Both the position numbers and the translations under genes were made by a program. A stretch of 49,428 nucleotides of DNA from the IMG/VR virus record IMGVR_UViG_3300022871_000001, positions 1-49,428 of that record, one strand, 5' to 3'. The stretch's first letter is position 1. Each line of letters opens with the position of its first letter. Positions 128 through 48,428 of this stretch are shown here, piece after piece. The stretch comes from a virus. The notes under the pieces were generated by a model. The model ran no database searches. It was not told the DNA's origin and saw nothing but the letters and a program-made list of their open reading frames with translations.

Positions 128-480
128 TGAAATTGCAACTTTAGACAATCTTATTTCAATTGGCGGCAATGCTGATTTTAGGGATAGCAAACTTACAAGT
201 TTACGAAATCTCAATTCAATTGGCAGAAATGTTATTTTTGCAAACAGTGAAATTACAACTTTAGACAATCTTACTTCAATTGCCGGATATGCTAATTTTG
301 AAAACAGTAAAATTACAAGTTTAAACAATCTTACTTCAATTACCGGAAATGTTTATTTTAAAAACAGTGAAATTGCAACTTTAGACAATCTTATTTCAAT
401 TGGCGGCAATGCTGATTTTAGGGATAGCAAACTTACAAGTTTACGAAATCTCAATTCAATTGGCGGAAATGTTTATTTTG
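1..480 (+). repeat. 60-bp tandem repeat array, eight units
   Basis: Eight consecutive 60-bp units encode the leucine-rich repeats. Units 1 and 5, 2 and 6, 3 and 7, and 4 and 8 resemble each other most, so a four-unit block of 240 bp has been duplicated. Two further units at 49302-49428 are the same bases as units 1-2 because of the terminal overlap. Confidence 0.9.
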
Positions 481-3984: not shown

Positions 3985-3993
3985 GATTAAAGT

Positions 3994-5475: not shown

Positions 5476-6339
5476 ATGGCAATACTAAACAAAACTAATG
5501 AACAAATGAAATCAGAAGCACAGGCGCAGGATGATATTGATTTAGTTTTTGAGAAAACAACTGAGCGTAAGCTAAATTCATTAGTTAGGAAGATAGTTGA
5601 GGAATTTGTTATTGTTTACGCTGCAACCGGTCGAATTATAGACACATTACAATATATTGTCGAATTACAGTCTCTAATTATTCAGGCATATCGTAGAACT
5701 AATAGTGAGTTTAGTGTTTCATATATTAATGATATGGAGGAAGCGCTATCAAGATCAAAAACTGATCCTGAGAAGACAAGGCTAAATAATCTTATAAAAA
5801 TTAGGGATGAAGCAAGTCCTATTATTCTTTTATCGTTATTAGCATGGTCAAAACGGATGGCACCAGTACAGAGCAGATATATAGTTGAGACATGGGGCAA
5901 GATAATAAGAAAAAACGTTGATGATGTTGTTGCGGATCTTTTATTATCAGAGCAGGCACTTGATAATAAGATTATAGCACAAAAAACAAAGAACCCTTTA
6001 CTCTGTGAGTTAATCAATCATAATAAACTAATAGCAACGCAGGAAATACAAACAGCAACAGAGAACGCTAAGCATACAGAAGTTAGTGAGTTTAATCTGT
6101 TGATTAAAAGAAGCGTAATAAGTAGAGAAATAATAAAAATAGCGATGATTGAAAAAAAGTGGATAACAATGGGAGACCTAAGAGTTAGAGAACATCATGC
6201 GATAGCTAATGGGCAGCGCAGAAATCTCAATGATCCTTTTTTAGTAGGTGGTGAGCTATTAAAGTATCCTAATGATACATCTTTAGGCGCAAGCGTCTGG
6301 AATATTATTAATTGTAGATGTAAATCAATATATTTATAA
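5476..6339 (+). CDS. MuF / SPP1 gp7-like head morphogenesis protein
   Basis: This 287-residue protein lies between portal and protease, the usual place for a MuF-type minor head protein. The C-terminal about 80 residues carry the diagnostic pattern: KKWITMGDLRVREHHAIANG, then PNDTSLGASVWNIINCRCKS. The N-terminal part is helical and weakly conserved. The protein is thought to sit at the portal inside the head. The spacer before it (5413-5475) holds a GTAGG site and nothing else evident. Confidence 0.85.
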   Translation: MAILNKTNEQMKSEAQAQDDIDLVFEKTTERKLNSLVRKIVEEFVIVYAATGRIIDTLQYIVELQSLIIQAYRRTNSEFSVSYINDMEEALSRSKTDPEKTRLNNLIKIRDEASPIILLSLLAWSKRMAPVQSRYIVETWGKIIRKNVDDVVADLLLSEQALDNKIIAQKTKNPLLCELINHNKLIATQEIQTATENAKHTEVSEFNLLIKRSVISREIIKIAMIEKKWITMGDLRVREHHAIANGQRRNLNDPFLVGGELLKYPNDTSLGASVWNIINCRCKSIYL

Positions 6340-6436
6340 AATTAGATAAAATAATTAAATTCAATTGGTAAAAACAATTATACATGGTATATTATATATA
6401 ATCAATGCTATATTATAAATACCTAGATGGGGAAAT
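6340..6436. other. A+T-rich spacer before the protease gene
   Basis: This stretch holds repeated TATATT and TATAAT-like words but no clear -35 matching the early promoter family. It could contain a late promoter, which is only a guess. A GGGGA site lies just before the ATG at 6437. Confidence 0.3.
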
Positions 6437-7540
6437 ATGGACAAAGAAATTAAAAGAATTGAAGTCCCATTTTTGGTGACAAAAGAAGATATGATTGAAG
6501 GTGATATGTATTTTACTTTCAAAGGATACGCGTCAACATTTGGTAATATAGACAGGGACGGGGATACTATAGAACAGGGAGCTTTTAAAAAGTCATTAGA
6601 AAAGTTTTTAGAAACAGGGAATAAATTACCAATTCTTTGGCAGCATGAAATGGACATGCCTCTCGGGATTTATACACGTTTTACTGAAGATGACAAAGGA
6701 TTGCTAGTTGAAGGTAAAATGCCTAAGGCTGATAATTTTGTATCCGGTAGAGTTATTCCTCAAATGAGAATTGGTTCAGTACGTAAAATGTCAATAGGTT
6801 TTAGAATTTTAGAAAAAGAATATCAAACAATTGACGGAAGAAATATAAGAGTTATTAAAGAAGTTGAGCTGTTTGAGGTTTCACTAGTAACAATACCTGC
6901 AAATAATGAAGCTGATATTACAGGAATGAAATCATTCACTGTTTATAACGACTTACCTTTAGCAGAATTAAAAACTATATGGAATAAAGAGGATGCGCTA
7001 GGACGTGTCAGGGTATTAACAAACTCAACAGCACAGCCAAATTGCGGATACAATAAAGCATTCTTAAATTATGATATAGATAAGAAAAGTCTATATTCAA
7101 GCTATACCCTAGCTTTTGCAGATGTAATAGAAGATCAAATAAAAGCAGTTCCAGAAGCAATATTTGAAGTCGCAAAACAACTAATGACCGAAAAATATAA
7201 TAGTAATATTAATCCAGAGGACCGCCTTAAAATAATAACAAACATAAATAAATACTATGCTAAAATGCGTAAACAATTCGAAGATGCTGATATTATATCA
7301 CCTTTTGAAGAAGATACAGCACAGCTAATTAAAACATGTACAAAACTTTCAGATGTAGAATCGATATTTAAAAAACATTTCTTTAGCAATAAAGAATCAC
7401 AGATGATAATATCAAAAATAGCAGAATTAAAGCGGCTTGGTGACCAAGCTGCCGAAGATAGCCAAAACGATGATGTGTTGGCAAACGAGTTAACCGACAT
7501 TCTGTCGGAATTTAAAACAATTAATATCAGGGAGATATGA
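6437..7540 (+). CDS. Prohead protease (U35 family) with long C-terminal extension
   Basis: The N-terminal about 170 residues are an HK97-type assembly protease: FKGYASTFGNIDRDGDTIEQ at the start, the active-site histidine in ILWQHEMDMPLG, RKMSIGF, and FEVSLVTIPAN with the serine of the motif. The remaining about 195 residues include a globular region (residues about 175-270) and a charged helical tail that could serve as a fused scaffold, which is inferred. It cleaves capsid precursors during head maturation. Its TGA overlaps the capsid start region (TGAGATG). Confidence 0.9.
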   Translation: MDKEIKRIEVPFLVTKEDMIEGDMYFTFKGYASTFGNIDRDGDTIEQGAFKKSLEKFLETGNKLPILWQHEMDMPLGIYTRFTEDDKGLLVEGKMPKADNFVSGRVIPQMRIGSVRKMSIGFRILEKEYQTIDGRNIRVIKEVELFEVSLVTIPANNEADITGMKSFTVYNDLPLAELKTIWNKEDALGRVRVLTNSTAQPNCGYNKAFLNYDIDKKSLYSSYTLAFADVIEDQIKAVPEAIFEVAKQLMTEKYNSNINPEDRLKIITNINKYYAKMRKQFEDADIISPFEEDTAQLIKTCTKLSDVESIFKKHFFSNKESQMIISKIAELKRLGDQAAEDSQNDDVLANELTDILSEFKTINIREI

Positions 7541-7541
7541 G

Positions 7542-8852
7542 ATGTCTAGAGAAGAAAACGCACCTGTACTGCAAGAGTTCAAAGCAATAGCAGATACACT
7601 AAAAACAGATCTTGCTAATTTAGTATCAGAACAGAAAAAATCAGTTGATCAAATTGCTAAAGATGGCAAAGTACATGCAGATACAGTAATTAAACTCGAA
7701 GAAACTGTTAAAGGGATTAAAACAGAATTCGAAACCAAGGAAAAAGAATATCAAAAATCGATTAAAGATCTTGAAAAATCTATGGCAAATGCAAATGCGT
7801 TTGACAAAGCTGGTGATCTATCGAAAAACATTAAAAATTTTAACAAAATCCTAAAATCAAATAATAAACAAGAAATTCAGTTAGAAAACGTTTCAGAGAT
7901 TAAATCGGCATTTGATAAATATATCTGTTTTGGTAAAGAGTCACTTGATGATGGCGAACGCAAATTTCTTAACACTATTATAGATAGTTCAGGCGGATTT
8001 TTAGTAGTACCTGAATATGCTCAAACAGTAGAAACAAAAGAATTTGATAGTCACGGATTCATGGGAGCTTGTAATACAAGAGTTATAGGATCAAGTGAAT
8101 TTAAAGAAATTATCGACTGGGAAGACTACGATCAATCATTTTATGAAAATGAACTTGACGAAACAACTCCTTCGGACGATCAGGACTTCAAGGAAGTTAC
8201 TATACACGCAATACAACAGATCTATACAAAGAAAATCACAAGAAATACACTAGAAGATTCAATGATTAATATTGAGTCATATATTTTAGAACAATTGAGA
8301 ATGGGAATGTTACGCAAAGATGGCACAAATCTAATTACCGGTAATGGTGTTGATAAGCCCCGCGGTATTTTGACATACGCAACAGGTTCAACATACGGAA
8401 CTATCGAACAAGTCACAGGAACTACGGGAGCAGGCGTAGTCGGATGGTTAGAAATTCTCAAACTATTACCTAGCGCACTTAAAGATAATTATCATGCAAA
8501 CGCTTCTTATGTAATGCCTAGAGCTGCATTTTTCAGCATTTTGACTGATAAATCTGGAGGTACGGAATTTCAGGTAGGTTCACAAATTAATTTCTTTGAT
8601 AAATCAGGGGTTTCAATGAGACTTTTGGGATATCCAGTAGTTTTTGAATCTGCAATGCCTGCAGTAGCTTCAGCCTCACTCTCTATAGCATTTGGTGATA
8701 TGAGAAGAGCATATACTTATGTAAAACGTTTAGGCGTTTCTATCATAAGAGACGAAACAAATCCAAGATATATAAAACTGCATTTAAGACAGCGCGCTGG
8801 TGGTAATGTAATTAATTTTGAAGCATTGAAACTTCTAAAAACTAAATCATAA
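7542..8852 (+). CDS. Major capsid protein (HK97 gp5-like)
   Basis: This 436-residue protein begins with about 115 residues of charged coiled coil, the delta domain that scaffolds and is then cut off by the protease encoded upstream. The mature fold starts near the segment LNTIIDSSGGFLVVPEYAQT and continues with the family motifs NLITGNGVDKPRGIL and LLGYPVVFESAMP. The start is fixed by GGGAGATATGAG before the ATG. It builds the icosahedral shell. Confidence 0.95.
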   Translation: MSREENAPVLQEFKAIADTLKTDLANLVSEQKKSVDQIAKDGKVHADTVIKLEETVKGIKTEFETKEKEYQKSIKDLEKSMANANAFDKAGDLSKNIKNFNKILKSNNKQEIQLENVSEIKSAFDKYICFGKESLDDGERKFLNTIIDSSGGFLVVPEYAQTVETKEFDSHGFMGACNTRVIGSSEFKEIIDWEDYDQSFYENELDETTPSDDQDFKEVTIHAIQQIYTKKITRNTLEDSMINIESYILEQLRMGMLRKDGTNLITGNGVDKPRGILTYATGSTYGTIEQVTGTTGAGVVGWLEILKLLPSALKDNYHANASYVMPRAAFFSILTDKSGGTEFQVGSQINFFDKSGVSMRLLGYPVVFESAMPAVASASLSIAFGDMRRAYTYVKRLGVSIIRDETNPRYIKLHLRQRAGGNVINFEALKLLKTKS

Positions 8853-9604: not shown

Positions 9605-10206
9605 TATTTCCATACATTGAACAATCTCGAGCAGATGTGTTGCCTATGTCACTCTCGTATGCAAAAGAGTATTTGCATATTGACAGCGCAGATACTTCTC
9701 ATGACGTCACTGTAGGATACATGGTGAAAGCAGCACGCGACTTTTTTGAAAAGCATACAAACGTAACAACAACAGAAGTAACTTATAAAACATTTAGACT
9801 AAACTTTAATGATCGCTGTTTTCAGATACGTAAAAAACCATTACTGGCTATCAGTTCAGTTAAATATTATGATACAGATGATGTATTACAAACAGTAGAC
9901 GCTAGCAATTATTATATAGTTGAAGATAATCATTATAATTTTTTAGGATTTAAAAGAGCTTTTAGTGCGCCTAGTCTATCGGAAGATAATGGCTGGCCAA
10001 TACAAATAACTTTCACAGCAGGATATAGTGCACTAACGGATAAAATATCAGACGACATGAAAGACGGAATTTTAGCACATGTAGCTAAGATGTTTGAGAA
10101 TAGAGGAGATTCGTTCGAGTTCGATAATTCAAATTTAAATAGGCTAGTTCCTAGAACAACAAAGTTAGCAATAAGATCTTATAAAGTTCAGGAATTAGGG
10201 GGATAG
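9601..10206 (+). CDS. Head-tail connector (gp6-like)
   Basis: This 201-residue protein has the layout of phage gp6-type adaptors: LSYAKEYLHID near residues 18-28, the helical HDVTVGYMVKAARDFFEKHTN, then RLNFNDRCFQIRKKPLLAISSV and ITFTAGYSA, and a C-terminal helix. It should form the ring under the portal. Coupled to its upstream neighbour by an ATGA overlap. Confidence 0.8.
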   Translation: MIFPYIEQSRADVLPMSLSYAKEYLHIDSADTSHDVTVGYMVKAARDFFEKHTNVTTTEVTYKTFRLNFNDRCFQIRKKPLLAISSVKYYDTDDVLQTVDASNYYIVEDNHYNFLGFKRAFSAPSLSEDNGWPIQITFTAGYSALTDKISDDMKDGILAHVAKMFENRGDSFEFDNSNLNRLVPRTTKLAIRSYKVQELGG

Positions 10207-10212
10207 AATAAA

Positions 10213-10383
10213 ATGAAATTAATAGCAAGACGCAATGTACGTATATCGTGCAATAATGAAGTTATTCAGATTAAAAAGGGCCAAAGAATACCTACAAAGA
10301 GTTTGCCTATATCTGAAGAAGATATTAAATCATTAAGTAATAGTTCAGCATTTAGAATTGAAAAAGAAAAAGAAAATAAATGA
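10213..10383 (+). CDS. Small protein, unknown function
   Basis: This 56-residue frame starts MKLIARRNVRISCNN and ends in the charged EKEKENK. It overlaps the next start as ATGA. A small all-beta start with an IQIKKGQRIP loop resembles the 9377 product, so the two may be related. No function can be assigned. Confidence 0.6.
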   Translation: MKLIARRNVRISCNNEVIQIKKGQRIPTKSLPISEEDIKSLSNSSAFRIEKEKENK

Positions 10384-10790
10384 AATACGGTTTTAATAGC
10401 TCAAAAATTAAAAGATCAACAATAGGCGATATGCGATACAGGCTAGCAATAGAAACTTTTATGCCTATGCCAGCAAATGATCTATCAGGACAGATGACAG
10501 ACACCATATCCGTTATAGCAACAGTTTGGGGAGCTATGGAAACAAAGGCAGCTGGATCGTTTAGATTATTAGGTATTAATCTTGATGAAACAGAAGCACC
10601 AACACATGTTTTTTATATTAGATTTTGGAAAGCAGAATTTTTAGAAGCACGTTTTATTAGTTTTAATGGAAACCGGTATAAAATAATAAAACCACACGAT
10701 ATAAGGGGTAATCAACAAAGCAATTATCAAATTAGTTTTAACTGCGTTTTTAAGGGTGCAGTAGGTAAAAAAGCAAGCACTTATAAATAA
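10380..10790 (+). CDS. Head-tail adaptor / joining protein (gp16-like)
   Basis: This 136-residue protein has the small beta-barrel pattern of head closure proteins: GDMRYRLAIETFMP at about residues 16-29, VWGAMETKAAGS in the middle, and FISFNGNRYKIIKPHDI near the C-terminus. Its position after the gp6-like connector agrees. It should plug or extend the connector so that the tail can attach. Confidence 0.8.
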   Translation: MKYGFNSSKIKRSTIGDMRYRLAIETFMPMPANDLSGQMTDTISVIATVWGAMETKAAGSFRLLGINLDETEAPTHVFYIRFWKAEFLEARFISFNGNRYKIIKPHDIRGNQQSNYQISFNCVFKGAVGKKASTYK

Positions 10791-25920: not shown

Positions 25921-26313
25921 ATGAATACTGTATTAACAAAAGAACAATTAGAAAAGTCAAAACTAGAGATTAAAAAATATAATCTTGTACATAATAAACG
26001 TTTTTTTGAGTGTTCAGATAAGTTTATTATTAACTGCTTCAATGGTGCCGGAGCAGATGGAACAAATATTATCGCTAGAATATGTATAACAGAAATACTT
26101 AGTATGTTTATTACTGCGATACTGCTGCACGATTTCAGTTTCACATTAAAAGATGAAGAGTTTGATATTGTTAATCAAGATTTTAGAGAAAACATGGAAA
26201 AACTATTAGATGCAAAATCATCAAATATATTCTCTAAATCATGGAATAGATTTTTAAAAATTGCCGCGTTCGATATGGTAAATAAATTTGGTAATAAATG
26301 GGAGCTAATATGA
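25921..26313 (+). CDS. Conserved-type phage protein in lysis cassette, unknown function
   Basis: This 130-residue protein has the layout NCFNGAGADG, then ITEILSMFITAILLHDFSFT, then a helical C-terminus WNRFLKIAAFDMVNKFG. This NG-G then ITE then HD spacing resembles a family of small phage proteins of unknown role, many found near lysis genes. It sits where an endolysin would be expected, but it lacks any lysozyme, amidase or peptidase motif that I recognise. Confidence 0.6.
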   Translation: MNTVLTKEQLEKSKLEIKKYNLVHNKRFFECSDKFIINCFNGAGADGTNIIARICITEILSMFITAILLHDFSFTLKDEEFDIVNQDFRENMEKLLDAKSSNIFSKSWNRFLKIAAFDMVNKFGNKWELI

Positions 26314-26510
26314 ATGAATTACTTAAAAAACTAACTAATACAAAAACTATTATTGCAATAGCGTCATCGTTATTATTAATAGCGCAGACGTTAGGGTTGA
26401 AAATTGACAATGAAAAAGTAATGATTGTTGTTAATTTAGTGCTAACTATAGGCATTTTATTGGGAGTATTAAATAAATCAGGTATGAATACAACTAAAAT
26501 GGATAAATAA
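26310..26510 (+). CDS. Holin (phi LC3-like)
   Basis: The start at 26310 is supported by GGGAG six bases upstream, rather than the ATG at 26298 that forms part of that site. The product has 66 residues with two membrane segments (TIIAIASSLLLIAQTLG and VMIVVNLVLTIGILLGVL) separated by LKIDNEK, which matches the phi LC3 type of small holins. It should open the inner membrane at the end of infection. Confidence 0.8.
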   Translation: MNELLKKLTNTKTIIAIASSLLLIAQTLGLKIDNEKVMIVVNLVLTIGILLGVLNKSGMNTTKMDK

Positions 26511-26921: not shown

Positions 26922-26950
26922 GGACTAGATTTTATGCTAGTCCTTTTTTT
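26922..26950 (+). terminator. Intrinsic terminator of the late operon
   Basis: GGACTAG at 26922-26928 pairs with CTAGTCC at 26937-26943 around an 8-base loop, followed by seven T bases. It separates the plus-strand late genes from the convergent minus-strand block. Confidence 0.85.
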
Positions 26951-26973: not shown

Positions 26974-27546
26974 TTATTTCATATGACTGATCTTATCAAT
27001 GAATTCCTGTTCTTTTGTTAAAGCACTTTTCATATAATAATTATCTTCTAATCTCATACCCCAATTTTCGCAATAATATCCAGGCTCTACTGCAATTATC
27101 TCATTATCATAAGTATCATGTACTATATTTGTAATTCCGTGATTCAAACGATGATTACAATCCGGCAACACAGTATTCCATATCTTCTCTGCAGTATCTT
27201 CTAATAACGTTCTTTTTACTGTTTTTAAAAAGTTAAATTTTTCCCTATACTTTGCAGGAATAAATCTTCCGCAGTAGAGCATGCGTGTGATATCACTACA
27301 TTGATCGTTAATCTTAAAACCAAAGTCAATTAAAACTAGATCACCTTTCCTTAATTGTCTATTAGTCGCTGGTTCATTGTGTATTTCCCTAGTATTCTCG
27401 CCAAACGCTACTAAAGGATAGAAGGCAATATGGCCACTTCTGATAATAAAGTCTACAACATCAATTTCCCTTAGCCCTACGCATATAAAATCTTTTAATG
27501 CCGAGTAAATTTGTTCAGTAAAATCGAATACATCGTTAGTTTTCAT
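26974..27546 (-). CDS. Compact M24-family metallopeptidase
   Basis: This 190-residue protein has the complete active site of the M24 (methionine aminopeptidase / Xaa-Pro dipeptidase) fold: H56 in TREIHNEP, metal ligands D74 (LVLIDFGF), D85 (CSDITRML, eleven residues after D74 as in the family), H136 (LNHGI) with H143 seven residues later, E154 (IAVEPGYY) and E167 (MRLEDN). It is clearly shorter than the usual about 250 residues because the part between D85 and H136 is trimmed. It should remove N-terminal residues from peptides or be a binding-only derivative. It is the last gene of the minus-strand operon, with GAGGAGA before its start. Confidence 0.82.
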   Translation of the reverse strand: MKTNDVFDFTEQIYSALKDFICVGLREIDVVDFIIRSGHIAFYPLVAFGENTREIHNEPATNRQLRKGDLVLIDFGFKINDQCSDITRMLYCGRFIPAKYREKFNFLKTVKRTLLEDTAEKIWNTVLPDCNHRLNHGITNIVHDTYDNEIIAVEPGYYCENWGMRLEDNYYMKSALTKEQEFIDKISHMK

Positions 27547-27583
27547 AATTATCTCCTCTTATTTTACATTTAATCCTTGACAT

Positions 27584-27766
27584 TTAACTTATCATATTTA
27601 CTATTTCATCTGTAGTTTCTATAACATCAATATCTTCTACTATATTATTAGTAACTATTCTTATTGTTGTAAAAGTGTTCTTATAATTACGAAAGAAGTA
27701 TATTATATTTAGTTCATTGATCCTTAGATCACTGCCATTTGTTGTTTTTACATAAATAAAATTCAT
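27584..27766 (-). CDS. Small protein, unknown function
   Basis: The chosen start gives 60 residues (MNFIYVKTTNGSDLRINELN); it overlaps the TGA of the 20-residue frame upstream as ATGA. A GTG three codons earlier is less likely. The protein is beta-rich with an acidic end (DIDVIETTDEIVNMIS). No family is recognised. Confidence 0.6.
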   Translation of the reverse strand: MNFIYVKTTNGSDLRINELNIIYFFRNYKNTFTTIRIVTNNIVEDIDVIETTDEIVNMIS

Positions 27767-27877: not shown

Positions 27878-27906
27878 ATTATAACATATACATCACATTT
27901 TGTCAA
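27878..27906 (-). promoter_or_regulatory. Promoter of the shared early family
   Basis: On the minus strand CTATTGACA, a 17-bp spacer and TATAAT occur. It should drive the genes 27825 to 26974, including the M24 peptidase. Confidence 0.8.
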
Positions 27907-27923: not shown

Positions 27924-28190
27924 TTACTTTTTTATTTCTTCTCTAATCTTATTTACTATTGCACTATATTCTGATCTAGCATCATTTATTTTTTTAACTA
28001 GTTCAGCAGTAAATGCTTCATCTTCTAATCCTTTTGATATATCTAGTGTATTGCTCTTCCCTTTATGATAATCTTCTGAACTTGTTGCCCCCCATGTGCC
28101 ATATTTTGCTGTGAATCCTCTCGCATATAATATCAAAACTAAATTTTTTATAATGCTTTTAAGTTCTGCTAATCTTTTAAAACTATTCAT
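27924..28190 (-). CDS. Small phage protein, unknown function
   Basis: This 88-residue protein is helical at both ends with a central glycine-rich piece (GFTAKYGTWGATSSEDYHKG). Its leader region (28199-28273) is the inverted copy of the leader at 31231-31305. It follows rha by about 80 bp. No function can be assigned. Confidence 0.6.
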   Translation of the reverse strand: MNSFKRLAELKSIIKNLVLILYARGFTAKYGTWGATSSEDYHKGKSNTLDISKGLEDEAFTAELVKKINDARSEYSAIVNKIREEIKK

Positions 28191-28198
28191 TTTTATTA

Positions 28199-28273
28199 CT
28201 TTCTTAGTGTTAATGACTTTGTTAATAACTCTATATTTTGTGCCTAGTGTGCCTGTTAATAACTTTCACTATA
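28199..28273 (-). repeat. 75-bp inverted repeat, left arm
   Basis: This arm matches the reverse complement of 31231-31305 with one mismatch. It contains GTTATTAACA, GTTATTAACAAAG and CATTAACAC words, and GGCACACTAGGCACA, so it may hold operators. It lies between rha and the gene at 27924. Confidence 0.9.
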
Positions 28274-28973
28274 TATTTAATATGTTTTTAATTTTGTCTA
28301 GAAGGTATATTTGTCCTTTGCCGGTAATTAGATATGTTGTAACTAATAAATCGCCCTTAATAGAAGTTAAAACTGTTTCTTTAATTTCGAATATGCCCAT
28401 ATTTATATATCTTTGAAACGGAGAATTTTTAGATCTACCGGCTTTTATCAAAAATCCATTTTTGCGCAGTAGGTTGAATAGTTTATTACGACCTATTTTT
28501 ATGCCATAGTTATTTAACACTTTTGCATAATCACAAACCGGTATCGATTCTGAGGAGTTCGCTACACTTTTACCGAAGTTTGAAAAAGGTTTATCAAGTT
28601 TTAATTGTTCTGATTTTCTTTCATTTAATTCTACTATATCTACTAATGCTAATAGAGCTTCTTTGTACGTTGCAGGCAGCTTTGGCATATTTTGATTTTC
28701 AAGTTCTTCCCAGCGTGATAAAACTATATCTCTTAATTTTGTTGAATATCCTGTCAATAAAATCATTAATTCATGGTACGGTAAAAGATATTGCTTTTGG
28801 AATCTTCCACAACTGTCACTATAGATCTCCTCAAAAGTGAGGTAACCTTTTTTAAGATCTTTTAACATTTTTTCAATGTCTCTAAGTACATTGTCATGTC
28901 TCTTCCCTGTTTCTTTTGCAATTTCTCTACTGCTCATCGTCACTTTATTGTCCCTAACTTTTAAATTATTCAT
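28269..28973 (-). CDS. rha: Rha-family regulator with KilAC-like C-terminal domain
   Basis: The N-terminal about 90 residues are a Rha domain (VTMSSREIAKETGKRHDNVL, then FQKQYLLPYHELMILLTGYS). The C-terminal part (VCDYAKVLNNYGIKIGRNKL, LLRKNGFLIKAGRS, then a stretch ending in LDKIKNIL) matches the KilAC/ANT domain of antirepressors. The Rha plus ANT combination is typical of phage regulators that interfere with repressors or host functions. A relic of its middle part lies at 31186-31243. The 234-residue length fits the family. Confidence 0.88.
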   Translation of the reverse strand: MNNLKVRDNKVTMSSREIAKETGKRHDNVLRDIEKMLKDLKKGYLTFEEIYSDSCGRFQKQYLLPYHELMILLTGYSTKLRDIVLSRWEELENQNMPKLPATYKEALLALVDIVELNERKSEQLKLDKPFSNFGKSVANSSESIPVCDYAKVLNNYGIKIGRNKLFNLLRKNGFLIKAGRSKNSPFQRYINMGIFEIKETVLTSIKGDLLVTTYLITGKGQIYLLDKIKNILNI

Positions 28974-30039: not shown

Positions 30040-31139
30040 TTTTTTTTAAGTTTTTTTTAAGTTTATTTATTATGATTTGATTATCTAAATCTAAAAACAC
30101 AATAGACGCGTCTTAGAATGCAAAAGATATAAGACCCGATACAGTTATCACAAATCAATACAATCAAAAGCACATATAACAGTATGATCAAATTTAACCC
30201 TATTTTAACTTATATATTGGATTGGTAAATAACATTCCACCTAGTTAACCATATCAGTTCGCTTTTTAACTCTTACTTTTAATATCAAAATAATTATTTA
30301 AAAAACATGTAAAAAATCTTATTCCTGACTGTCTAGATAAAATATCTTTAATATCTTACTTATATTTATTATGTTCATTGTGTCGATGTCCGGTCGATGT
30401 GTTGATTATTTCTTTATCATTCTTTTTTAAACAGCGATAGGATCTGTTATTGCTTTAGACATAATAATTACTTTCTATCTTTATTATTAATGTCAAATAT
30501 AATAATAAAATAAGGGAGGTCAATAATATTTTTAGATTTTGACCCCTTCTTTTATATATGTTATTAGAATAATAATATATATTCTTGTTAGTGTCCGATT
30601 TAAAAAACGACGAGGTGTAACTTATTGATTGCTAAGTACTTATAAGAAAAATCCGCTGTCCGGTCGCTGTCCGAACGCTTGTTTTAATTAGTTGTAAGTT
30701 ACTAATAATAAGCTAGTTGCCTTATGCAATCCGCTGTCCACTGACCCTTTTTTTTTGACCTGCAATTTTTACCCATTTTTGATGATTATATTGATCTTTT
30801 AAAGTTCGTTGTTCAAACACTTGTTTTAATTAGTTGTAAGTTGTTAATTTATAATATGTTATCTTATGTAGTTCGCTGTCCAGTCGCTGTCCGATTTTAA
30901 AAAATAGAGTTTATAAATAGCTTATGATTAATATGTTATAAACTAATTTCGCTGTCCACTACTTTTTGCTAAAATTTCAATACAATTCTGATTTGTTAGA
31001 GATCTATATAGATTGATAGAACGTACATCGAAGCATCGACACGTCGACACATCTACAGAATATCGACACATCTACCTATTGTTTTGATTCATGTTTGGCA
31101 AGAAATTAAAGATTTTATCAAAATAACTAAAAACTGCTA
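30040..31139. other. Non-coding, iteron-rich region, probable replication origin
   Basis: No credible gene occurs in this 1.1-kb stretch. It holds at least six exact copies of CGCTGTCC (30654, 30665, 30732, 30874, 30885, 30950), several pairs spaced 11 bp apart, with variants CGATGTCC (30384) and GTGTCCGATT (30591). Two longer repeats share TTGTTTTAATTAGTTGTAAG (30680 and 30820). A second word, CGACACATCTAC, occurs twice near 31045 and 31065. The reverse complement GGACAGCG is repeated inside the initiator gene at 36.4 kb. This is the make-up of a phage origin bound by its own initiator. Confidence 0.65.
30516..30600 (-). pseudogene. Decayed inverted fragment of the initiator gene
   Basis: Read on the minus strand, this stretch begins AATCGGACACTAACAAGAATA, which is identical to about 36545-36565 of the initiator gene, and after a variable piece continues with GGGTCAAAA as at 36599. 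In translation it keeps KSDTNKN and later GQNL. It is therefore a broken, inverted duplicate of part of the initiator gene. Confidence 0.6.
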
Positions 31140-31167
31140 TTGACAAATTTACTTTTTGTAGTACACT
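31140..31167 (+). promoter_or_regulatory. First rightward early promoter
   Basis: CTATTGACA, a 16-bp spacer and TACACT precede the leader that leads into the rightward early genes. The -10 is the weakest of the family, which suggests it may need activation or be regulated. Confidence 0.65.
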
Positions 31168-31185: not shown

Positions 31186-31248
31186 ATGTTAAAAAATCTT
31201 AAAAAAGGTAACACAACTTTTAGGGATACCTATAGTGACAGTTATTAA
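31186..31248 (+). pseudogene. Relic of rha acting as a possible 20-residue leader
   Basis: The frame MLKNLKKGNTTFRDTYSDSY has AAAGGGAAA before its ATG. Positions 31186-31243 match the rha gene (28868 down to 28811) without gaps with about a dozen differences; rha reads MLKDLKKGYLTFEEIYSDS there. After TATAGTGACAGTT it jumps to sequence found downstream of rha. A deletion between two similar TATAGTGA words explains it. Confidence 0.7.
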
Positions 31249-31305
31249 CAGGCACACTAGGCACAAAATATAGAGTTATTAACAAAGTCATTAACACTAA
31301 GAAAG
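31231..31305 (+). repeat. 75-bp inverted repeat, right arm
   Basis: This arm is the reverse complement of 28199-28273 with one mismatch. It forms the untranslated leader of the gene at 31315, as the left arm does for the gene at 28190. It carries GTTATTAACA and CATTAACAC words that may be operators. Confidence 0.9.
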
Positions 31306-31314
31306 GCAAATAAA

Positions 31315-31503
31315 ATGAAACAGGGATATGCAGCATTATCAGCACGACAGCATCTAATTCAAAGATCAGTTAACCGGATTAAAAAAGAATCAAAAAATCA
31401 TTTAAGTTATGGAGATGATATTGATGATCAAAAAACGTTATTATATATGCAATCTGTTAAAGATATATTAGAAGAATTACAGGAAATAATAGATATAAAA
31501 TAA
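31315..31503 (+). CDS. Small charged protein, unknown function
   Basis: This 62-residue protein (MKQGYAALSARQHLIQRSVN at its start) has a helical second half that reappears in the frame at 31868-31996. It is the first full rightward early gene. The ribosome binding site AAGAAAGG is moderate. No family is recognised. Confidence 0.6.
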   Translation: MKQGYAALSARQHLIQRSVNRIKKESKNHLSYGDDIDDQKTLLYMQSVKDILEELQEIIDIK

Positions 31504-31606
31504 TATAAAAAACTTTCAAAAAACTTCTTTTAACTATTGACAAATTGCATTAAGTGCATATAATGTATAATAGAAAGAGAGGTAAATGAAATGAAAAATT
31601 TAACAA
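31384..31606 (+). repeat. Duplicated cassette, copy 1
   Basis: These 223 bp recur at 31877-32099 with one difference seen. The unit spans the 3' half of one small gene, a full promoter and the start of the next gene, so recombination or copying has moved a promoter plus gene boundary. Confidence 0.93.
31537..31564 (+). promoter_or_regulatory. Promoter of the shared early family
   Basis: TTGACA, 16 bp and TATAAT. Phased A-tracts lie just upstream (AAAAAACTTTCAAAAAACTTC). It serves the gene at 31591. Confidence 0.85.
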
Positions 31607-31878
31607 ATAAGTTAGTAGATCAAGGATATAAATTAGAAGTTAATTATAAACTTAATTTTCAAAAAAGGAATTTAGAAATGAAAACTACAAACAGTGAATT
31701 TTTAATGAATAAGGTTATAAGATTAACCGGTCACACAAAAGAACAAATTATGAATGATTATTATAATTCTTATAGAGTTTCAGATTTTATAAAAAGTTTG
31801 GATGGAGATGATATAAATAGTGCTAAAATTACAAGCACTTTGAGAAATTTATATAAAAAATTAAGTAATGAATCTTAA
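31591..31878 (+). CDS. Small protein, unknown function
   Basis: This 95-residue protein shares its first residues MKNLT and its promoter with the gene at 32084 because of the cassette duplication. The rest (VIRLTGHTKEQIMNDYYNSY) is helical. Its end overlaps the start of the repeated frame at 31868. No function is recognised. Confidence 0.6.
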   Translation: MKNLTNKLVDQGYKLEVNYKLNFQKRNLEMKTTNSEFLMNKVIRLTGHTKEQIMNDYYNSYRVSDFIKSLDGDDINSAKITSTLRNLYKKLSNES

Positions 31879-31996
31879 AGAATCAAAAAATCATTTAAGT
31901 TATGGAGATGATATTGATGATCAAAAAACGTTATTATATATGCAATCTGTTAAAGATATATTAGAAGAATTACAGGAAATAATAGATATAAAATAA
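31868..31996 (+). CDS. Truncated paralogue of the 31315 product
   Basis: The frame is MNLK followed by ESKNHLSYGDDIDDQKTLLY and onward, identical to the last 38 residues of the 31315 product. The start lies inside the preceding gene (AGTAATGAATC). It is the coding part of the duplicated cassette and may be a harmless passenger. Confidence 0.5.
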   Translation: MNLKESKNHLSYGDDIDDQKTLLYMQSVKDILEELQEIIDIK

Positions 31997-32099
31997 TATA
32001 AAAAACTTTCAAAAAACTTCTTTTAACTATTGACAAATTGCATTAAGTGCGTATAATGTATAATAGAAAGAGAGGTAAATGAAATGAAAAATTTAACAA
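31877..32099 (+). repeat. Duplicated cassette, copy 2
   Basis: This is the second copy of 31384-31606, offset by 493 bp in the same orientation. The one visible difference is GCGTA in place of GCATA in the promoter spacer. Confidence 0.93.
32030..32057 (+). promoter_or_regulatory. Promoter of the shared early family (second cassette copy)
   Basis: TTGACA, 16 bp and TATAAT, duplicated from 31537-31564. It serves the gene at 32084. Confidence 0.85.
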
Positions 32100-33252: not shown

Positions 33253-33846
33253 ATGCAGATAATACGAGATGTAGAACAGGGATCAGAAAAATGGTTTAAA
33301 TTGCGTGAGTTACGCATGACTGCTTCACATGCTCAAAGTATTGCTGCAGCAGGTAAGGGCCTAGATACATATATAAGGACTAGAATTCAAAACTATAAAT
33401 TAGGACAAGGATCTCCTATTTTCATTAATGATGCGATTGAAAATGGTATTAAGTTAGAGCCAGAGGCGCGCTCAATGTATGAAATAACTAAAGGAATAGA
33501 AACACGGCAGGTTGGCTTTGTAATATATAACGATTATGTAGGTTGTTCGCCTGATATGTTGATTTGTAAAAAGGGACTAGGTGAAATAAAATGTCCTACT
33601 GACCGCGTATTTTTACGATATCTAAAAGATAAAATAATAAATACAAAATATCTATGGCAAATGCAAATGCAAATGATGATCTGCGAGCGTAGCTGGTGCG
33701 ACTATATAGTTTACAATCCACATTTTTTAGAAAACATTATTGTAAAGCGCGTATATGCGGATACGGCAATGTTTCAAAAGTTAAAAGCAGGGTTAGTAAT
33801 AGGTACAGAACTAATTAAAGAATTACTAGAAGGAGGTGAAAAATGA
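33253..33846 (+). CDS. YqaJ-like viral exonuclease
   Basis: This 197-residue protein has the YqaJ/lambda-exonuclease layout: QGSEKWFKLRELRMTASHA at the start, the acidic residue in VGCSPDMLI, then LGEIKCP (the E-x-K motif) and YLWQMQMQM. It should digest one strand of double-stranded DNA and supply single strands to the ERF protein, forming a Red-like recombination pair. Confidence 0.92.
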   Translation: MQIIRDVEQGSEKWFKLRELRMTASHAQSIAAAGKGLDTYIRTRIQNYKLGQGSPIFINDAIENGIKLEPEARSMYEITKGIETRQVGFVIYNDYVGCSPDMLICKKGLGEIKCPTDRVFLRYLKDKIINTKYLWQMQMQMMICERSWCDYIVYNPHFLENIIVKRVYADTAMFQKLKAGLVIGTELIKELLEGGEK

Positions 33847-33978
33847 ATATAATATTAGTATTAGTAGGAACAATTATATTGATAATGATGATAATGATGA
33901 TAATCACGGGGATATATTTATCAACTATATCAGACGAAATAGATAGAGAATATAAGAAACAAAAGGAATTTGAAGAAA
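33831..33978 (+). repeat. Duplicated membrane-peptide segment, copy 1
   Basis: These 148 bp are identical by eye to 34870-35017. They begin at the ribosome binding site and end in the coding sequence of the membrane peptide. Confidence 0.93.
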
Positions 33979-34001
33979 CAATAAAAAGAGGGGGAACTTA
34001 A
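33843..34001 (+). CDS. Small membrane protein (copy 1)
   Basis: This 52-residue protein has one N-terminal membrane segment (MNIILVLVGTIILIMMIMMI) and a charged tail. The first 45 residues are identical to the protein at 34882; the last few differ. It has an AGGAGGTG site. Confidence 0.7.
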   Translation: MNIILVLVGTIILIMMIMMIITGIYLSTISDEIDREYKKQKEFEETIKRGGT

Positions 34002-34003
34002 TA

Positions 34004-34885
34004 ATGAATAGTATCGTAAAAGTAGACGCAAAAGACTTTGGATTAGAAGAGAACAAAGCTCAGCAGATAGCAATAATGTTTGATCCGATGTTGAATAAAA
34101 TGGTAGAGCTAGAAAAAGAATATAACGCGCTAGCTAAAATTGATATTTCAGAAAAAAAATGTCAGTGGGCTAAGGATTTAAGATTACAATATGTTAAAGT
34201 AAGGACAGGCACAGCTAAAATTCATAAAGAGCTAAAACAATTCTATTTACAGGGGGGTAGATTTGTTGACGGCTGGAAAAATGCGCAATTGATGGCTTCC
34301 GGAACAATAGAAAATAAACTTAAAGACATAGAAGATCATTATGTTAATATTGAAAAAGAAAAAATACAAAAGGTTGAGGATGAAAGAACCGTTGAATTAT
34401 TAAAATATGGTAGTGAAATAATGCCGAAACAGTTAGGTAATATGCCAGAAGCAGTATTTCAAAATTATTTAACAGGAGTAAAAACTGCTTATGAATTAAA
34501 AATAGCCGCAGAGGAAAAAGCTGAAGATGAAAGAATAAAATTAGAACAACAAAAAATAGCAGAAGAAAAAGCTTTGCGTGCAGAGAACGAAAGGTTAAAA
34601 GAGCAGGCAAAGGCAGATGCAATAATACGTGAGAAGGAACGTATAAAATTTGAGGCAAAGGCAAAAGAGCAGGCAAGGGCAGAATTAGATCGTAAAATAC
34701 AGGAGGAAGAAAGACAGGAAAAGACAAGATTAAATTCACGCGAGGATTTAGTCAAATTTAAAGATTTTAAAACAAATATATTATCGTTAATAAAAGAATA
34801 TGATAATTTTACTGATCAAAGATGTGCTGATAGTTTTAATTATATCAAGGATTTTATAACCGATTATTTAGGAGGTGAAAAATGA
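34004..34885 (+). CDS. Coiled-coil phage protein of the recombination region
   Basis: This 293-residue protein has a helical N-terminus with a segment recurrent in phages (KVRTGTAKIHKELKQFYLQG, then GRFVDGWKNAQLMASG) and a long central charged coiled coil at residues about 165-245. It resembles a family of phage proteins of unknown role that often lie next to recombination genes (DUF1351-like). It lies between the two copies of the small membrane gene. Confidence 0.65.
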   Translation: MNSIVKVDAKDFGLEENKAQQIAIMFDPMLNKMVELEKEYNALAKIDISEKKCQWAKDLRLQYVKVRTGTAKIHKELKQFYLQGGRFVDGWKNAQLMASGTIENKLKDIEDHYVNIEKEKIQKVEDERTVELLKYGSEIMPKQLGNMPEAVFQNYLTGVKTAYELKIAAEEKAEDERIKLEQQKIAEEKALRAENERLKEQAKADAIIREKERIKFEAKAKEQARAELDRKIQEEERQEKTRLNSREDLVKFKDFKTNILSLIKEYDNFTDQRCADSFNYIKDFITDYLGGEK

Positions 34886-35017
34886 ATATAATATTAGTAT
34901 TAGTAGGAACAATTATATTGATAATGATGATAATGATGATAATCACGGGGATATATTTATCAACTATATCAGACGAAATAGATAGAGAATATAAGAAACA
35001 AAAGGAATTTGAAGAAA
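34870..35017 (+). repeat. Duplicated membrane-peptide segment, copy 2
   Basis: This is the second copy of 33831-33978, offset by 1,039 bp in the same orientation, identical by eye. Confidence 0.93.
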
Positions 35018-35049
35018 GACTAGAAAAAGGTAAAATTAATAATGAATGA
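34882..35049 (+). CDS. Small membrane protein (copy 2)
   Basis: This 55-residue protein is the duplicate of the one at 33843 and differs only in the last about ten residues (RLEKGKINNE). Its start overlaps the TGA of the coiled-coil gene. A 17-codon frame (35042-35095) follows and is too short to call. Confidence 0.7.
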   Translation: MNIILVLVGTIILIMMIMMIITGIYLSTISDEIDREYKKQKEFEERLEKGKINNE

Positions 35050-35095
35050 AAAGAAACGTAAAAACTTATTAATAAAATATAAGGGAATTATATAA

Positions 35096-40471: not shown

Positions 40472-40972
40472 ATGTTTAATAATAGAGAACGGAATATAAT
40501 TCTTACTGGCGATATAGAAGCAAACAATTCAATAGCTGTATGCGCCAATTTATTAGATTTAGATTCAGAAGAAGAAATTACATTATTTATAAATTCCGCA
40601 GGTGGAAGCATAAATGCCGGTTATGCTATTATAGACGTTATGCATGCATTAGATAGTCCTGTCAACATTGTTGCGATAGGGTATGTCGCAAGCATGGCAA
40701 CCTCGATAATGGCGCTGGGCGAAAAAGGCAGACGATATGCATATTCTCATACTGTTTTTTTGATCCACAATCCTAGGACAAAAACAGAAGGTAACTACGG
40801 CGAATTAAAAGTTGATTTAAACCATTTGCTTAAAACAGAAAAAAGTATGATAACTGATTTAGCAAAAGCTACAGGTCAAACAAAAGAACAAATAACTAAA
40901 GATTTTAAACTAGAAAGAACTTTTACGGCGAAAGAAGCTAAAAAATATGGATTAATAGATCACATAATTTAA
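40472..40972 (+). CDS. clpP: ClpP-like serine protease
   Basis: This 166-residue protein has the ClpP fold: FINSAGGSINAGYAI, GYVASMATSIMALG with the nucleophile S74, and FLIHNP with H99, separated by 25 residues as in ClpP. The third residue, expected 49 after the histidine, is E148 in place of aspartate. The oligomer-sensing Asp-Arg pair is also changed (KL). The protein is not fused to capsid genes and a separate U35 protease exists, so its target is probably host or early phage protein. AAAGGAGG precedes the start. Confidence 0.88.
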   Translation: MFNNRERNIILTGDIEANNSIAVCANLLDLDSEEEITLFINSAGGSINAGYAIIDVMHALDSPVNIVAIGYVASMATSIMALGEKGRRYAYSHTVFLIHNPRTKTEGNYGELKVDLNHLLKTEKSMITDLAKATGQTKEQITKDFKLERTFTAKEAKKYGLIDHII

Positions 40973-40979
40973 GGAAAAT

Positions 40980-41450
40980 ATGAAAACAGGTATAATATTT
41001 GATATTGATGAGGTTTGCTCAATAACATTCGAAAAAGAATTAATGAAAGAGCATGCGCAAGAAATTCTTGTTGATGATTATACCTGGTTTCTTCCTCTTA
41101 TTAAAACGTTCAAGGCTTCAAAAAGTAGTATAGCTTTAATTAATGCAATGTCTATACAACATAAAATTATTTTTGTAACATCTAGAAACGAAAGGACTCG
41201 ATCAAAAACAATAAATTGGATTAATAATAATTATATTTTTCCAGAAAATAATACATATTTATTATACTGCAGAGAGATGACAGATTTAAGGTCTGCTTAT
41301 CTTGTTAAAAAAGATTTATACTTAGATCATATTAAAGATAAATTTGATATAATCTTTGCGCTAGATGACTTAAAAAGAGTATGTAAAGTTTGGCAAGATT
41401 TAGATATAGATTCTTATCAAGTAAGACTTGCTTATAATAAGAAAGGATAA
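40980..41450 (+). CDS. HAD-type polynucleotide 3'-phosphatase-like protein
   Basis: This 156-residue protein has the HAD nucleophile motif FDIDEV, the segment HKIIFVTSRNERTRSKTINW and the acidic motif FALDDLKRVCKVW, in the order found in the phosphatase half of T4-type polynucleotide kinase. No kinase domain is present. It may clean 3' ends for ligation or repair. Confidence 0.75.
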   Translation: MKTGIIFDIDEVCSITFEKELMKEHAQEILVDDYTWFLPLIKTFKASKSSIALINAMSIQHKIIFVTSRNERTRSKTINWINNNYIFPENNTYLLYCREMTDLRSAYLVKKDLYLDHIKDKFDIIFALDDLKRVCKVWQDLDIDSYQVRLAYNKKG

Positions 41451-41473
41451 AATATGGAATAAAAAAATAGCCT

Positions 41474-41483
41474 CCCCCCCCCC
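41474..41483 (+). repeat. Homopolymer of ten C in an A+T-rich genome
   Basis: TCCCCCCCCCCG interrupts the 67-bp spacer between the phosphatase and PhoH genes. It lies in the untranslated leader of PhoH. Such tracts can vary in length by slippage. It may also be a sequencing or assembly weak point. Confidence 0.9.
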
Positions 41484-41517
41484 GCAAATTGAAATTATTA
41501 AAGTTAGGAAAAAAACA

Positions 41518-42834
41518 ATGCGTATACTAATATTAGACACTAATGTTATACTGCATGACTCAAATTGCATTGAACAACTTAGTAATGATAATGTAGTTAT
41601 ACCAATTACGGTGATAGAAGAACTTGACACGTTTAAAAAGGGTCACGATTCTATAAATTATAATGCGAGATCATTTCTCCGAAAATTAGATGCCTTAAAT
41701 TGTAAAGAACTATATATTGAAGGCGCTAAAATTGGCACTGGAACCGGAACTCTTAGAATAGATTCTGTAGATTCAATACACGAAAACATTAAAAAAAAGT
41801 TTTCTGCTGATAGTAATGATAATAAAATTATTAATGTTGCATATATAAATCATAAGTATTTTATAAACTCCGAAGTGATATTATTATCTAACGATGCAAA
41901 CATGAGGATTAAAGCAAGATCATTAGGATTAGTTGCAGAAGAATTTAGTACTGATAAAACAGCTAACGCAACAGGATTATATTCAGGAAGTAGAATAATA
42001 GATGATGTTTCTAAAACAATTCTAGATAAAATAACTATGGGAATGCAGGAAGTTGATGCTTCTGAATTAGAATTAAATGAAGAACTTACCCCTAATGAAT
42101 TTTTAATACTAAGGAATGAAAAAAAGTCAGTACTAGCTATCTTTGATGCCTCGATTAATAAAATAAAAAAATTAGAAGAAAATGGTATACAAGGGATTAA
42201 ACCCAGAAACGCAGACCAGGCATTTGCTATTCATGCAATGCTGGACCCTAAAATTAGCTTAGTAACATTATCAGGTAAGGCAGGAACAGGAAAGACTATA
42301 ATGGCACTTGCTGGCGCGCTTCAAGCAGGCAAAAGATATAATCAAATATTAATATCTCGTCCGGTTGTTCCTTTAAGTAACAAAGATATCGGGTTTTTAC
42401 CTGGTGACATTGATGCAAAGCTAGATCCATACATGCAACCTCTATATGATAATCTTGGAGTAATACAAAGTAATTGCTCAGGTGTAGATCCAAAAACGTT
42501 TAATATGCGATTTTTCATGGAAAATAAAAAAATGGAAGTCGCACCTTTGGCATATATCCGCGGTCGTAGCTTAGTCAAGTCGTTTTTTATCATTGATGAA
42601 GCACAGAACTTAACAGCACATGAAATTAAAACTATTATAACACGTGCTGGAGAAGGTACAAAAATTATATTAACAGGTGACTTATTTCAGATAGATCATC
42701 CAGATATTGACAGCCAGTCAAGCGGACTAAGCTATTTAATAGAAAAAATGCAGGGTCAAAAAATATATGCTCATATCAATTTAGACAAAGGAGAACGTTC
42801 AGAACTTGCCGAGATAGCAAGTAATATTTTATAA
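41518..42834 (+). CDS. phoH: PIN-PhoH protein (RNase-like domain plus ATPase)
   Basis: The ATG at 41518 after TTAGGAAAA is preferred to an upstream TTG at 41428, which would read through the C-tract. The protein has 438 residues: an N-terminal PIN domain (RILILDTNVILHD, IPITVIEELDTFK) and a PhoH ATPase with Walker A GKAGTGKT and Walker B FFIIDEAQN, then ILTGDLFQIDHP. PIN-PhoH fusions unwind and cut RNA. Phage copies are common; their role in infection is uncertain. Confidence 0.9.
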   Translation: MRILILDTNVILHDSNCIEQLSNDNVVIPITVIEELDTFKKGHDSINYNARSFLRKLDALNCKELYIEGAKIGTGTGTLRIDSVDSIHENIKKKFSADSNDNKIINVAYINHKYFINSEVILLSNDANMRIKARSLGLVAEEFSTDKTANATGLYSGSRIIDDVSKTILDKITMGMQEVDASELELNEELTPNEFLILRNEKKSVLAIFDASINKIKKLEENGIQGIKPRNADQAFAIHAMLDPKISLVTLSGKAGTGKTIMALAGALQAGKRYNQILISRPVVPLSNKDIGFLPGDIDAKLDPYMQPLYDNLGVIQSNCSGVDPKTFNMRFFMENKKMEVAPLAYIRGRSLVKSFFIIDEAQNLTAHEIKTIITRAGEGTKIILTGDLFQIDHPDIDSQSSGLSYLIEKMQGQKIYAHINLDKGERSELAEIASNIL

Positions 42835-44516: not shown

Positions 44517-44705
44517 ATGAAAAATTTATTAACAGAAAAAGAAATCTATGATCTAATAAAAAATGGTGACAAGATATATAAAAAACAACAAGAAGAACGT
44601 GATAAGTTTTTAAATGATCCTAAAAATAAAAAAAAAATAGAGCAGATCAAAAAAACATTAAAAGACGCTGAAATAGAATATAAATTGCAGGTGGATACGA
44701 AATGA
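44517..44705 (+). CDS. Small charged helical protein
   Basis: This 62-residue protein (MKNLLTEKEIYDLIKNGDKI at its start) is a charged helix. Its last codons are part of the 250-bp duplicated cassette and overlap the start of the NrdD-tail gene (ATGA). Confidence 0.6.
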   Translation: MKNLLTEKEIYDLIKNGDKIYKKQQEERDKFLNDPKNKKKIEQIKKTLKDAEIEYKLQVDTK

Positions 44706-44866
44706 ATAATAAAAAATGCGGGTTAAAATGCGAAGTATACGCACGCGTAACTGGATATATAAGACCGGTTAACGTATGGAACAAGGGTAAAAAAGAAGAG
44801 TTTATTAATAGGAAGGAATATATTACAAATAATCAGAAAATAATCAAAAAGGCTATTGACAAATAG
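44702..44866 (+). CDS. Orphan NrdD C-terminal domain (glycyl-radical RNR tail), copy 1
   Basis: This 54-residue protein has CGLKCEVYARVTGYIRPVNV then WNKGKKEEFINRKEY, which matches the C-terminal zinc/radical-region segment of anaerobic ribonucleotide reductase (RVTGYxRPV, WNxGKxxEF). Only one cysteine pair is present and no catalytic domain. Small stand-alone copies occur in phages. It may act on the host enzyme or be unrelated in function. It is identical to the gene at 48243. Confidence 0.75.
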   Translation: MNNKKCGLKCEVYARVTGYIRPVNVWNKGKKEEFINRKEYITNNQKIIKKAIDK

Positions 44867-44883
44867 CATAATATGTGTATAAT
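44856..44883 (+). promoter_or_regulatory. Promoter of the shared early family
   Basis: CTATTGACA, 16 bp and TATAAT overlap the end of the NrdD-tail gene. It is part of the duplicated cassette. Confidence 0.85.
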
Positions 44884-44908
44884 TATAAGTAAAGAGGAGG
44901 GATTTATA

Positions 44909-45190
44909 ATGAGTGAAAAAACTAAAGAACTTATTAAATCAATAGACGCAGGGATAGAGCGATGTAAAATCGGAATAGAAGAAAACGAAAGTAGTATTGA
45001 GGAGATTAAGAGAATGTTAGCAAAAACAAAACAACTACTTGATAAATGCGAAGAAAATATGATAGATAATTATATGAGAAGAACTAATTGTTACATGTGC
45101 AAAATAGAACTATCATTAGCAGAAGCACAATATGTTAAAGGCGAATCTTATTGCAAAAGATGTACTGATTGCGTAACTAAAAAGGCATAG
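44909..45190 (+). CDS. Coiled-coil protein with C-terminal zinc site
   Basis: The ATG at 44909 with GAGGAGGG upstream is preferred to an earlier in-frame ATG at 44873. The 93 residues are a charged coiled coil (TKELIKSIDAGIERCKIGIE, then AKTKQLLDKCEEN) followed by CYMC and YCKRCTDC, a TraR/DksA-like or zinc-ribbon arrangement. A DksA-like role in transcription is possible but only inferred from the layout. Confidence 0.6.
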   Translation: MSEKTKELIKSIDAGIERCKIGIEENESSIEEIKRMLAKTKQLLDKCEENMIDNYMRRTNCYMCKIELSLAEAQYVKGESYCKRCTDCVTKKA

Positions 45191-48155: not shown

Positions 48156-48242
48156 TTATAAGAGTTAATAAGAAAAAGTAGAGCAGATCAAAAAAGGATT
48201 AAAAGACGCTGAAATAGAATATAAATTGCAGGTGGATACGAA

Positions 48243-48424: not shown

Positions 48425-48428
48425 TATA

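Follow-up and report, generated by a model that had tools for sequence, protein, structure and literature searches.

Can a phage-borne protein of only 190 residues be a working member of the M24 metallopeptidases, and if so, which branch of the family does it represent and on what would it act? The question is raised by a minus-strand gene at positions 26974..27546 of the viral record IMGVR_UViG_3300022871_000001, of which the whole stretch analysed, 49,428 nucleotides, is referred to here as the window. M24 enzymes are nearly universal in cells, being present in 14 of 14 control genomes, and a first-pass annotation of the window had singled out this gene as encoding a complete, unusually short and, for phages, rare member of the family. 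The window belongs to a tailed phage with a contractile-type tail, encoding terminase, portal, head protease, major head protein, tape measure, and baseplate hub and wedge. Because its first 127 bases are identical to its last 127 and a further contig, L003, spans the junction, this is probably a nearly complete genome of about 49.3 kb, either circular or circularly permuted.

The reading frame runs from ATG to TAA over 190 codons without internal stops, and an AGGAG ribosome-binding site, read directly from the sequence (27553..27557, minus strand), lies 6 nt 5' of the start codon. Since the Pfam Peptidase_M24 profile (PF00557) is matched with 72.3 bits against a gathering cut-off of 23, the frame is not a product of chance; a chance frame or a pseudogene is ruled out by the uninterrupted frame, the PF00557 match (E 6.4e-20) and the alignment to the family columns, and at the sequence level the gene is confirmed as real and apparently intact. 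Shortening by assembly error is unlikely because a separate contig of the same phage population, L002, carries an identical frame, with one difference in 13.5 kb, and a relative of similar size exists in another phage contig, L090, although these two contigs come from one metagenome and are thus not independent by place.

Upstream of the M24 gene, and separated from it by 37 nt, lies a small gene (27584..27766, minus strand) of 60 aa from an internal ATG or 63 aa from a GTG at 27775, which has no family match in PHROGs, Pfam or NCBIfam; the two genes are probably co-transcribed. A sigma-70-type promoter-like site, TTGACA-17-TATAAT with TG before the -10 box (27878..27906, minus strand), was identified from a 12/12 consensus match. 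As this site precedes the small gene and then the M24 gene, it would serve a two-gene unit rather than be the M24 gene's own promoter, as had been supposed. The M24 gene of L090 also has a 12/12 TTGACA-17-TATAAT site upstream; because the total of promoter-like sites in both phage regions is not above that of shuffled sequence, only the perfect score and the placement support these promoters. CTATTGACAAA-like -35 elements, accompanied by consensus or near-consensus -10 boxes, recur in the minus-strand block at 27906, 29625, 29838 and 30026 (minus strand). The earlier placement of the gene in a regulatory minus-strand block stands: the M24 gene lies between a convergent holin-like gene (26298..26510, plus strand; phrog_297, 1.7e-6) and a minus-strand block with an antirepressor that combines a Rha N-terminal domain with an ANT/KilAC domain (28269..28973, minus strand; phrog_63, 2.2e-56; PF03374, PF09669). 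A hairpin with a T-tract (26922..26943, plus strand), which separates the M24 gene from the convergent genes on the holin side, is terminator-like on the plus strand and has no T-run on the minus strand.

It is virtually certain that the protein belongs to the M24 family and fold. Peptidase_M24 is its sole significant Pfam family, and its PHROGs match (3.5e-10) is to phrog_24316, a functionally uncharacterised profile of 367 positions; no PADLOC defence family matches it. All 10 PDB sequences matched with E no higher than 1e-3 are named or titled as Xaa-Pro or proline dipeptidases or aminopeptidases, and when a two-row profile of the phage proteins was compared with PDB, the first methionine aminopeptidase (MetAP) appeared at E 0.032, after 33 X-Pro-type or related chains. 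Among NCBIfam models, the cut-offs of Xaa-Pro aminopeptidase (21.9 against 465 bits) and dipeptidase (19.6 against 630 bits) were not reached, and the MetAP models TIGR00500 (13.5 against 171.35 bits) and TIGR00501 (12.6 against 222.65 bits) scored at noise level. The X-Pro-first ranking in PDB, together with the lack of any NCBIfam equivalog at its cut-off, places the protein in M24, nearest the X-Pro branch and outside the named equivalogs; as judged from sequence, this points to a closer relation to the X-Pro branch (M24B) than to methionine aminopeptidase, on which the first-pass annotation had laid its emphasis.

The putative active site was assessed by alignment to 80 cellular homologues, the best 80 of 530 relatives obtained in a four-row alignment scan of genome contigs, which are bacterial, unclassified and, in a few cases, archaeal. 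The seven residues that had been listed before, H56, D74, D85, H136, H143, E154 and E167, all fall in M24 family columns, and the metal ligands D74, D85, H136, E154 and E167 follow the order D, D, H, E, E with the D-x10-D spacing. Nine columns (H56, D74, D85, H132, H136, H143, E154, R165, E167) spell HDDHHHERE in the window protein, a string shared by 79 of the 80 homologues, the remaining one having N at the H132 column; Y158 occupies a nearly invariant column. As the homologues were fetched via motifs around D74 and D85, conservation there is partly selected, and loop lengths are unaffected by this. The nine columns correspond in order to what we take to be H243, D260, D271, H350, H354, H361, E383, R404 and E406 of Escherichia coli aminopeptidase P, and Y158 maps to Y387 of that enzyme. 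The earlier description of a full active site was thus sound for the seven residues and incomplete in lacking H132, Y158 and R165. These three agree with the X-Pro site too: they are the equivalents of the proline-pocket (S1') residues H350, Y387/388 and R404/406, and all three are kept.

The roles of the X-Pro active-site residues are taken from two papers (PMC5723419 and PMC5774706). Aminopeptidase P is described there as using a proton relay of Asp260-Arg404-Tyr387 (PMC5774706), and in prokaryotic enzymes a tryptophan of the neighbouring subunit, Trp88', is described as extending the S1' site (PMC5723419). Judged by its residue number, Trp88' would sit in the N-terminal domain, and its counterpart is absent from the window protein.

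Structure prediction, which had been proposed as a check, returned the X-Pro aminopeptidase/prolidase (pita-bread) fold over 183 of the 190 residues. The AlphaFold2 model (pLDDT 86.9, pTM 0.85) was built from a 48-row alignment consisting of the window protein, the L090 protein and 46 of the 80 cellular proteins; its weakest parts are the C-terminus and residues 111-150 (pLDDT 67-78), which contain H132, H136 and H143. The best Foldseek match is the X-Pro aminopeptidase 2zsg (E 2.8e-14), to which VIA-align superimposed 183 residues with Z 23.8, rmsd 1.9 A and 24% identity. MetAP is absent among the 50 entries listed by VIA-align, an absence that excludes nothing. Non-peptidases with the M24 fold, namely ectoine hydrolase EutD, DMSP lyase DddP and SPT16, also align well (Z 19.6-21), so that the fold alone is no proof of peptidase activity. 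Among predicted viral structures (BFVD), matches at E <= 0.001 were limited to two Megaviridae proteins (A0A5J6VJF0 and A0A5J6VMD3), which share an M24-like fold and differ in size (330-739 aa), in identity (14-16%) and in belonging to giant viruses of eukaryotes.

The protein is as short as had been noted: the cellular homologues (best 80 of 530) measure 242-542 aa, and at 190 aa with a full metal site it is the shortest complete M24 unit in this analysis. Part of the difference lies in the N-terminal domain of the two-domain prolidases and aminopeptidase P, which is absent, the model aligning to the catalytic domain alone (137..359 of 2zsg); the two-domain architecture is typical for M24B, though single-domain homologues exist. 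The catalytic domain is itself shortened: D85 and H136 are 51 residues apart, compared with 57-71 (median 64) in the 80 homologues, and the H143-E154 gap measures 11, compared with 17-23 (median 22) in all 80. The window protein resembles the catalytic domains of M24B Xaa-Pro enzymes (2zsg, 1wn1, 4rgz, PepQ/PepP) in predicted fold, metal ligands, H56, H132, H143, Y158 and R165, and differs from these enzymes in the missing N-terminal domain, in both shortened gaps and in being phage-borne. Several single-domain M24B-like proteins, from Nomurabacteria and other genomes (L012, L019, L032, L034; 242-256 aa), likewise lack the N-terminal domain and have the M24 site in the nine columns, but unlike the window protein they have standard loops (64-71 and 22). 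Two further single-domain proteins from a Clostridia-class search (L093, L094) have open frames of 236 and 237 codons, or 198 and 224 aa from the first ATG. The single-domain cellular M24B-like proteins do not group with the phage pair in the tree described below.

The claimed rarity in phages was borne out. Among 50,697 INPHARED phage records, the window protein matched 7, the L090 protein matched 5 (E limit 0.01) and a single-domain M24 query from Nomurabacteria matched 51. Five of these records were opened (L005, L006, L007, MissG2 and Ab105-3phi), and their M24 enzymes are longer, with the L007 copy cut by the record edge. L005, L006 and L007 are short contigs, of which L005 has one further frame beside M24 and the other two have neighbours resembling bacterial metabolic genes, with no phage gene seen on them; in MissG2 the neighbours are chromosomal (UvrA, Mg transporter, Spx, RuvX), and in Ab105-3phi, a partial prophage record, the M24 gene stands at the extreme end, past the integrase. 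No convincing phage-embedded M24 copy was seen in the five. In cells, the closest homologues (best 80 of 530) are 24-34% identical to the window protein, and a scan of genome contigs with the single protein for signs of host capture gave 28 pattern stretches and 0 relatives. No compact M24 copy was found among the matches listed for 1,174 genomes, searched at strict E limits (1e-12 to 1e-18) with compactness judged from open-frame length: 391 in the class of G005 (Oscillospiraceae locus L021), 299 in the class of G006 (Priestia locus L066), 286 in the phylum of G009 (Nomurabacteria locus L012) and 198 in the phylum of G007 (Elusimicrobiaceae locus L010). One 208-aa open frame at a contig edge appeared in the class-of-G005 search. 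M24-directed motif scans of IMG/VR found M24 genes only in contigs _015663 and _009501 of 3300035698, which were the only two to encode M24 among the 16 stretches of one scan, and another such scan gave no M24 relatives; further scans used terminase and PhoH as queries. Because back-translated motif scans miss divergent copies, absence elsewhere in IMG/VR is weak evidence. In titles and abstract openings of the PMC literature, nothing was recognised as describing a comparable phage enzyme.

The search for homologues in other phages yielded one relative. It was found by an alignment-based scan of viral contigs in L090 (IMGVR_UViG_3300035698_009501, 10.7 kb), from the metagenome that also holds a duplicate of the window phage. 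L090 carries a large terminase (phrog_2, 3.8e-26) and a divergent block of small genes, and its compact M24 protein (9408-9986 of L090; Pfam M24 9.5e-17) has 192 aa, is 36-38% identical to the window protein and resembles it in the metal ligands, the short H143-E154 gap, the promoter-like site and the terminase-bearing surroundings. Its model is of similar quality (pLDDT 87.8, Z 21.7 to 2zsg). Eight of the nine columns are kept (H, D, D, H, H, E, R, E), with Y at the H132 column, and such retention at this level of identity argues for selection on the site. However, the equivalent of Y158 and the PG after E154 are missing, leaving only the Arg of the proline-pocket residues, so that the two phage proteins do not have X-Pro specificity in common. 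The gaps are 10 (H143-E154) and 58 (D85-H136), the latter inside the cellular range, and thus only one of the two shortenings is common to both. When all frames of at least 40 codons were compared between the window and L090, M24 was the only match at E 1e-4. In a maximum-likelihood tree of 50 proteins, the two phage proteins form a long-stemmed clade supported at 100/100; the L090 branch is long (2.31) and attraction is possible; the shared short loop counts as separate support. With a distant version in a second, unrelated phage, this looks like a real phage-borne enzyme lineage. Directly 3' of the compact gene, L090 encodes a beta-solenoid repeat protein with YdcK-type repeats (10139-10528).

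What, then, would such an enzyme do? The reading we prefer, and hold to be about an even call, is that of a minimal single-domain M24B-type metallo-exopeptidase, expressed early and acting on short (Xaa-Pro) peptides. That the protein is an active metallohydrolase is likely, and, granted activity, a preference for X-Pro is equally likely. We infer metal binding, catalysis and X-Pro preference, with the chemistry carried over from aminopeptidase P and prolidase, and likewise the timing. By this analogy, D74, D85, H136, E154 and E167 would coordinate a pair of divalent ions (Mn, Co or Zn) for the activation of water, substrate carbonyls would be bound by H56 and H143, D74-R165-Y158 may form the proton relay, and H132, Y158 and R165 would make a shallow pocket for proline in P1'. 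With such a metal site and pocket, the enzyme would remove an N-terminal residue before a second-place proline in short peptides, or cleave dipeptides of the Xaa-Pro type. With the N-terminal domain and half of the H143-E154 loop gone, the site should be more open than in the two-domain enzymes. Expression is probably early, driven by a host-type promoter and alongside the antirepressor block. A bolder version, which we regard as unlikely though worth stating, is that the pair represents a phage-specific minimal M24 lineage long split from prolidases, which has shed both the N-terminal domain and a loop of the active site and is dedicated to a peptide or protein N-terminus target early in infection; the L090 copy, its metal site kept and its proline pocket lost, would then mark a change of substrate within the lineage.

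Of the alternatives, the one that survives best is a non-proteolytic use of the M24 fold, as a peptide-binding pseudoenzyme or another small-molecule hydrolase in the manner of SPT16, EutD or DddP. The good alignment of those three proteins to the model, the loss of the proline pocket in L090 and the two shortened loops are consistent with it; nevertheless, pseudoenzymes usually lose ligands, and here the five metal ligands together with H56, H143 and R165 are kept in both phage proteins despite their divergence, which makes this use rather unlikely.

It has also to be considered that the enzyme breaks down one particular short peptide with a signalling or antimicrobial role, such as a phage communication peptide, a host pheromone or a leader, which would explain its proximity to the antirepressor. 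This is improbable: the shared minus-strand block with Rha/Ant, the host-type promoter and the keeping of this one gene by two otherwise unrelated phages favour it, but no peptide gene or receptor was identified, and the block of the L090 copy has no recognised regulator. Somewhat less probable still is a MetAP-like action on protein N-termini, altering the N-terminal processing of phage or host proteins. Methionine aminopeptidases (M24A) are single-domain enzymes with five metal ligands, as is the window protein, whose size and open site are nearer to them than to a two-domain prolidase, and MetAP chains are weakly present in the PDB profile search; yet X-Pro peptidases outrank MetAP in every comparison, TIGR00500 falls far below its cut-off, and the window protein, unlike MetAP, has the X-Pro pocket residues. 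A recently captured, decaying fragment of a host prolidase, which the missing domain and loop segments might suggest, is very improbable given the low identity to the closest cellular homologues, the intact frame with a good ribosome site, and the divergent phage relative with the same short H143-E154 loop in a fully supported clade.

What is moderately surprising about this unusual protein is its compactness, its residence in a phage and the divergent second copy. With a 190-aa M24 protein, one could test directly how far proline specificity depends on the N-terminal domain and on the active-site loop. That two otherwise unrelated phages keep such a gene, each with a strong promoter-like site upstream, suggests that the trimming of peptides is of some value to a phage. 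In a Dp-1-resistant pneumococcus, a mutation lies in a host M24 dipeptidase, and the allele alone is reported to have given an EOP of 1 (PMC4652380); this case therefore has no bearing on the phage enzyme.

Other features of the window provide its setting. The window proteins scanned, a subset of the frames, included no recognisable integrase or repressor, and no DNA match in the phage set was found for window 1-24700 (near) or 2698-8852 (distant); matches of the antirepressor, portal and PhoH are scattered over many hosts. The early plus-strand block encodes a ClpP-like protease (40472-40972; PF00574, 8.5e-45), in which the usual catalytic Asp position may, by eye, be Glu, and, as a passing thought only, it might produce short peptides that the M24 enzyme would trim. 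A dATP/dGTP diphosphohydrolase N-terminal domain (PF18909, 43205-43648) lies near a PNKP-type phosphatase (40980-41450) and PhoH (41428-42834). A D12-type DNA methyltransferase frame (1146-2201) contains a 9-nt tandem repeat at 1677-1855 that encodes a Leu/Gln/Glu/Arg-rich insert, and a 60-nt tandem array runs across the contig ends (1-540 and 49286-49428), with a different copy arrangement in L003. Between the divergent blocks, about 1.1 kb (30040-31160) is free of frames of at least 60 aa and holds repeated CGCTGTCC- and TCGA-rich units; an origin or operator region may lie here. Two divergent small genes (27924-28190, minus strand; 31315-31503, plus strand) have their leader and start region within an inverted duplicate of 89 nt, 94% identical (28186-28273 and 31231-31319), which is probably a duplicated promoter/operator. 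Recent segmental duplications abound in the genome and include a 223-nt direct duplicate, 99.6% identical (31384-31606 and 31877-32099), that contains part of a 62-aa gene and the promoter-like region following it, and further direct duplicates at 44629-44921 and 48170-48457 (95%) and at 33831-34021 and 34870-35063 (93%).
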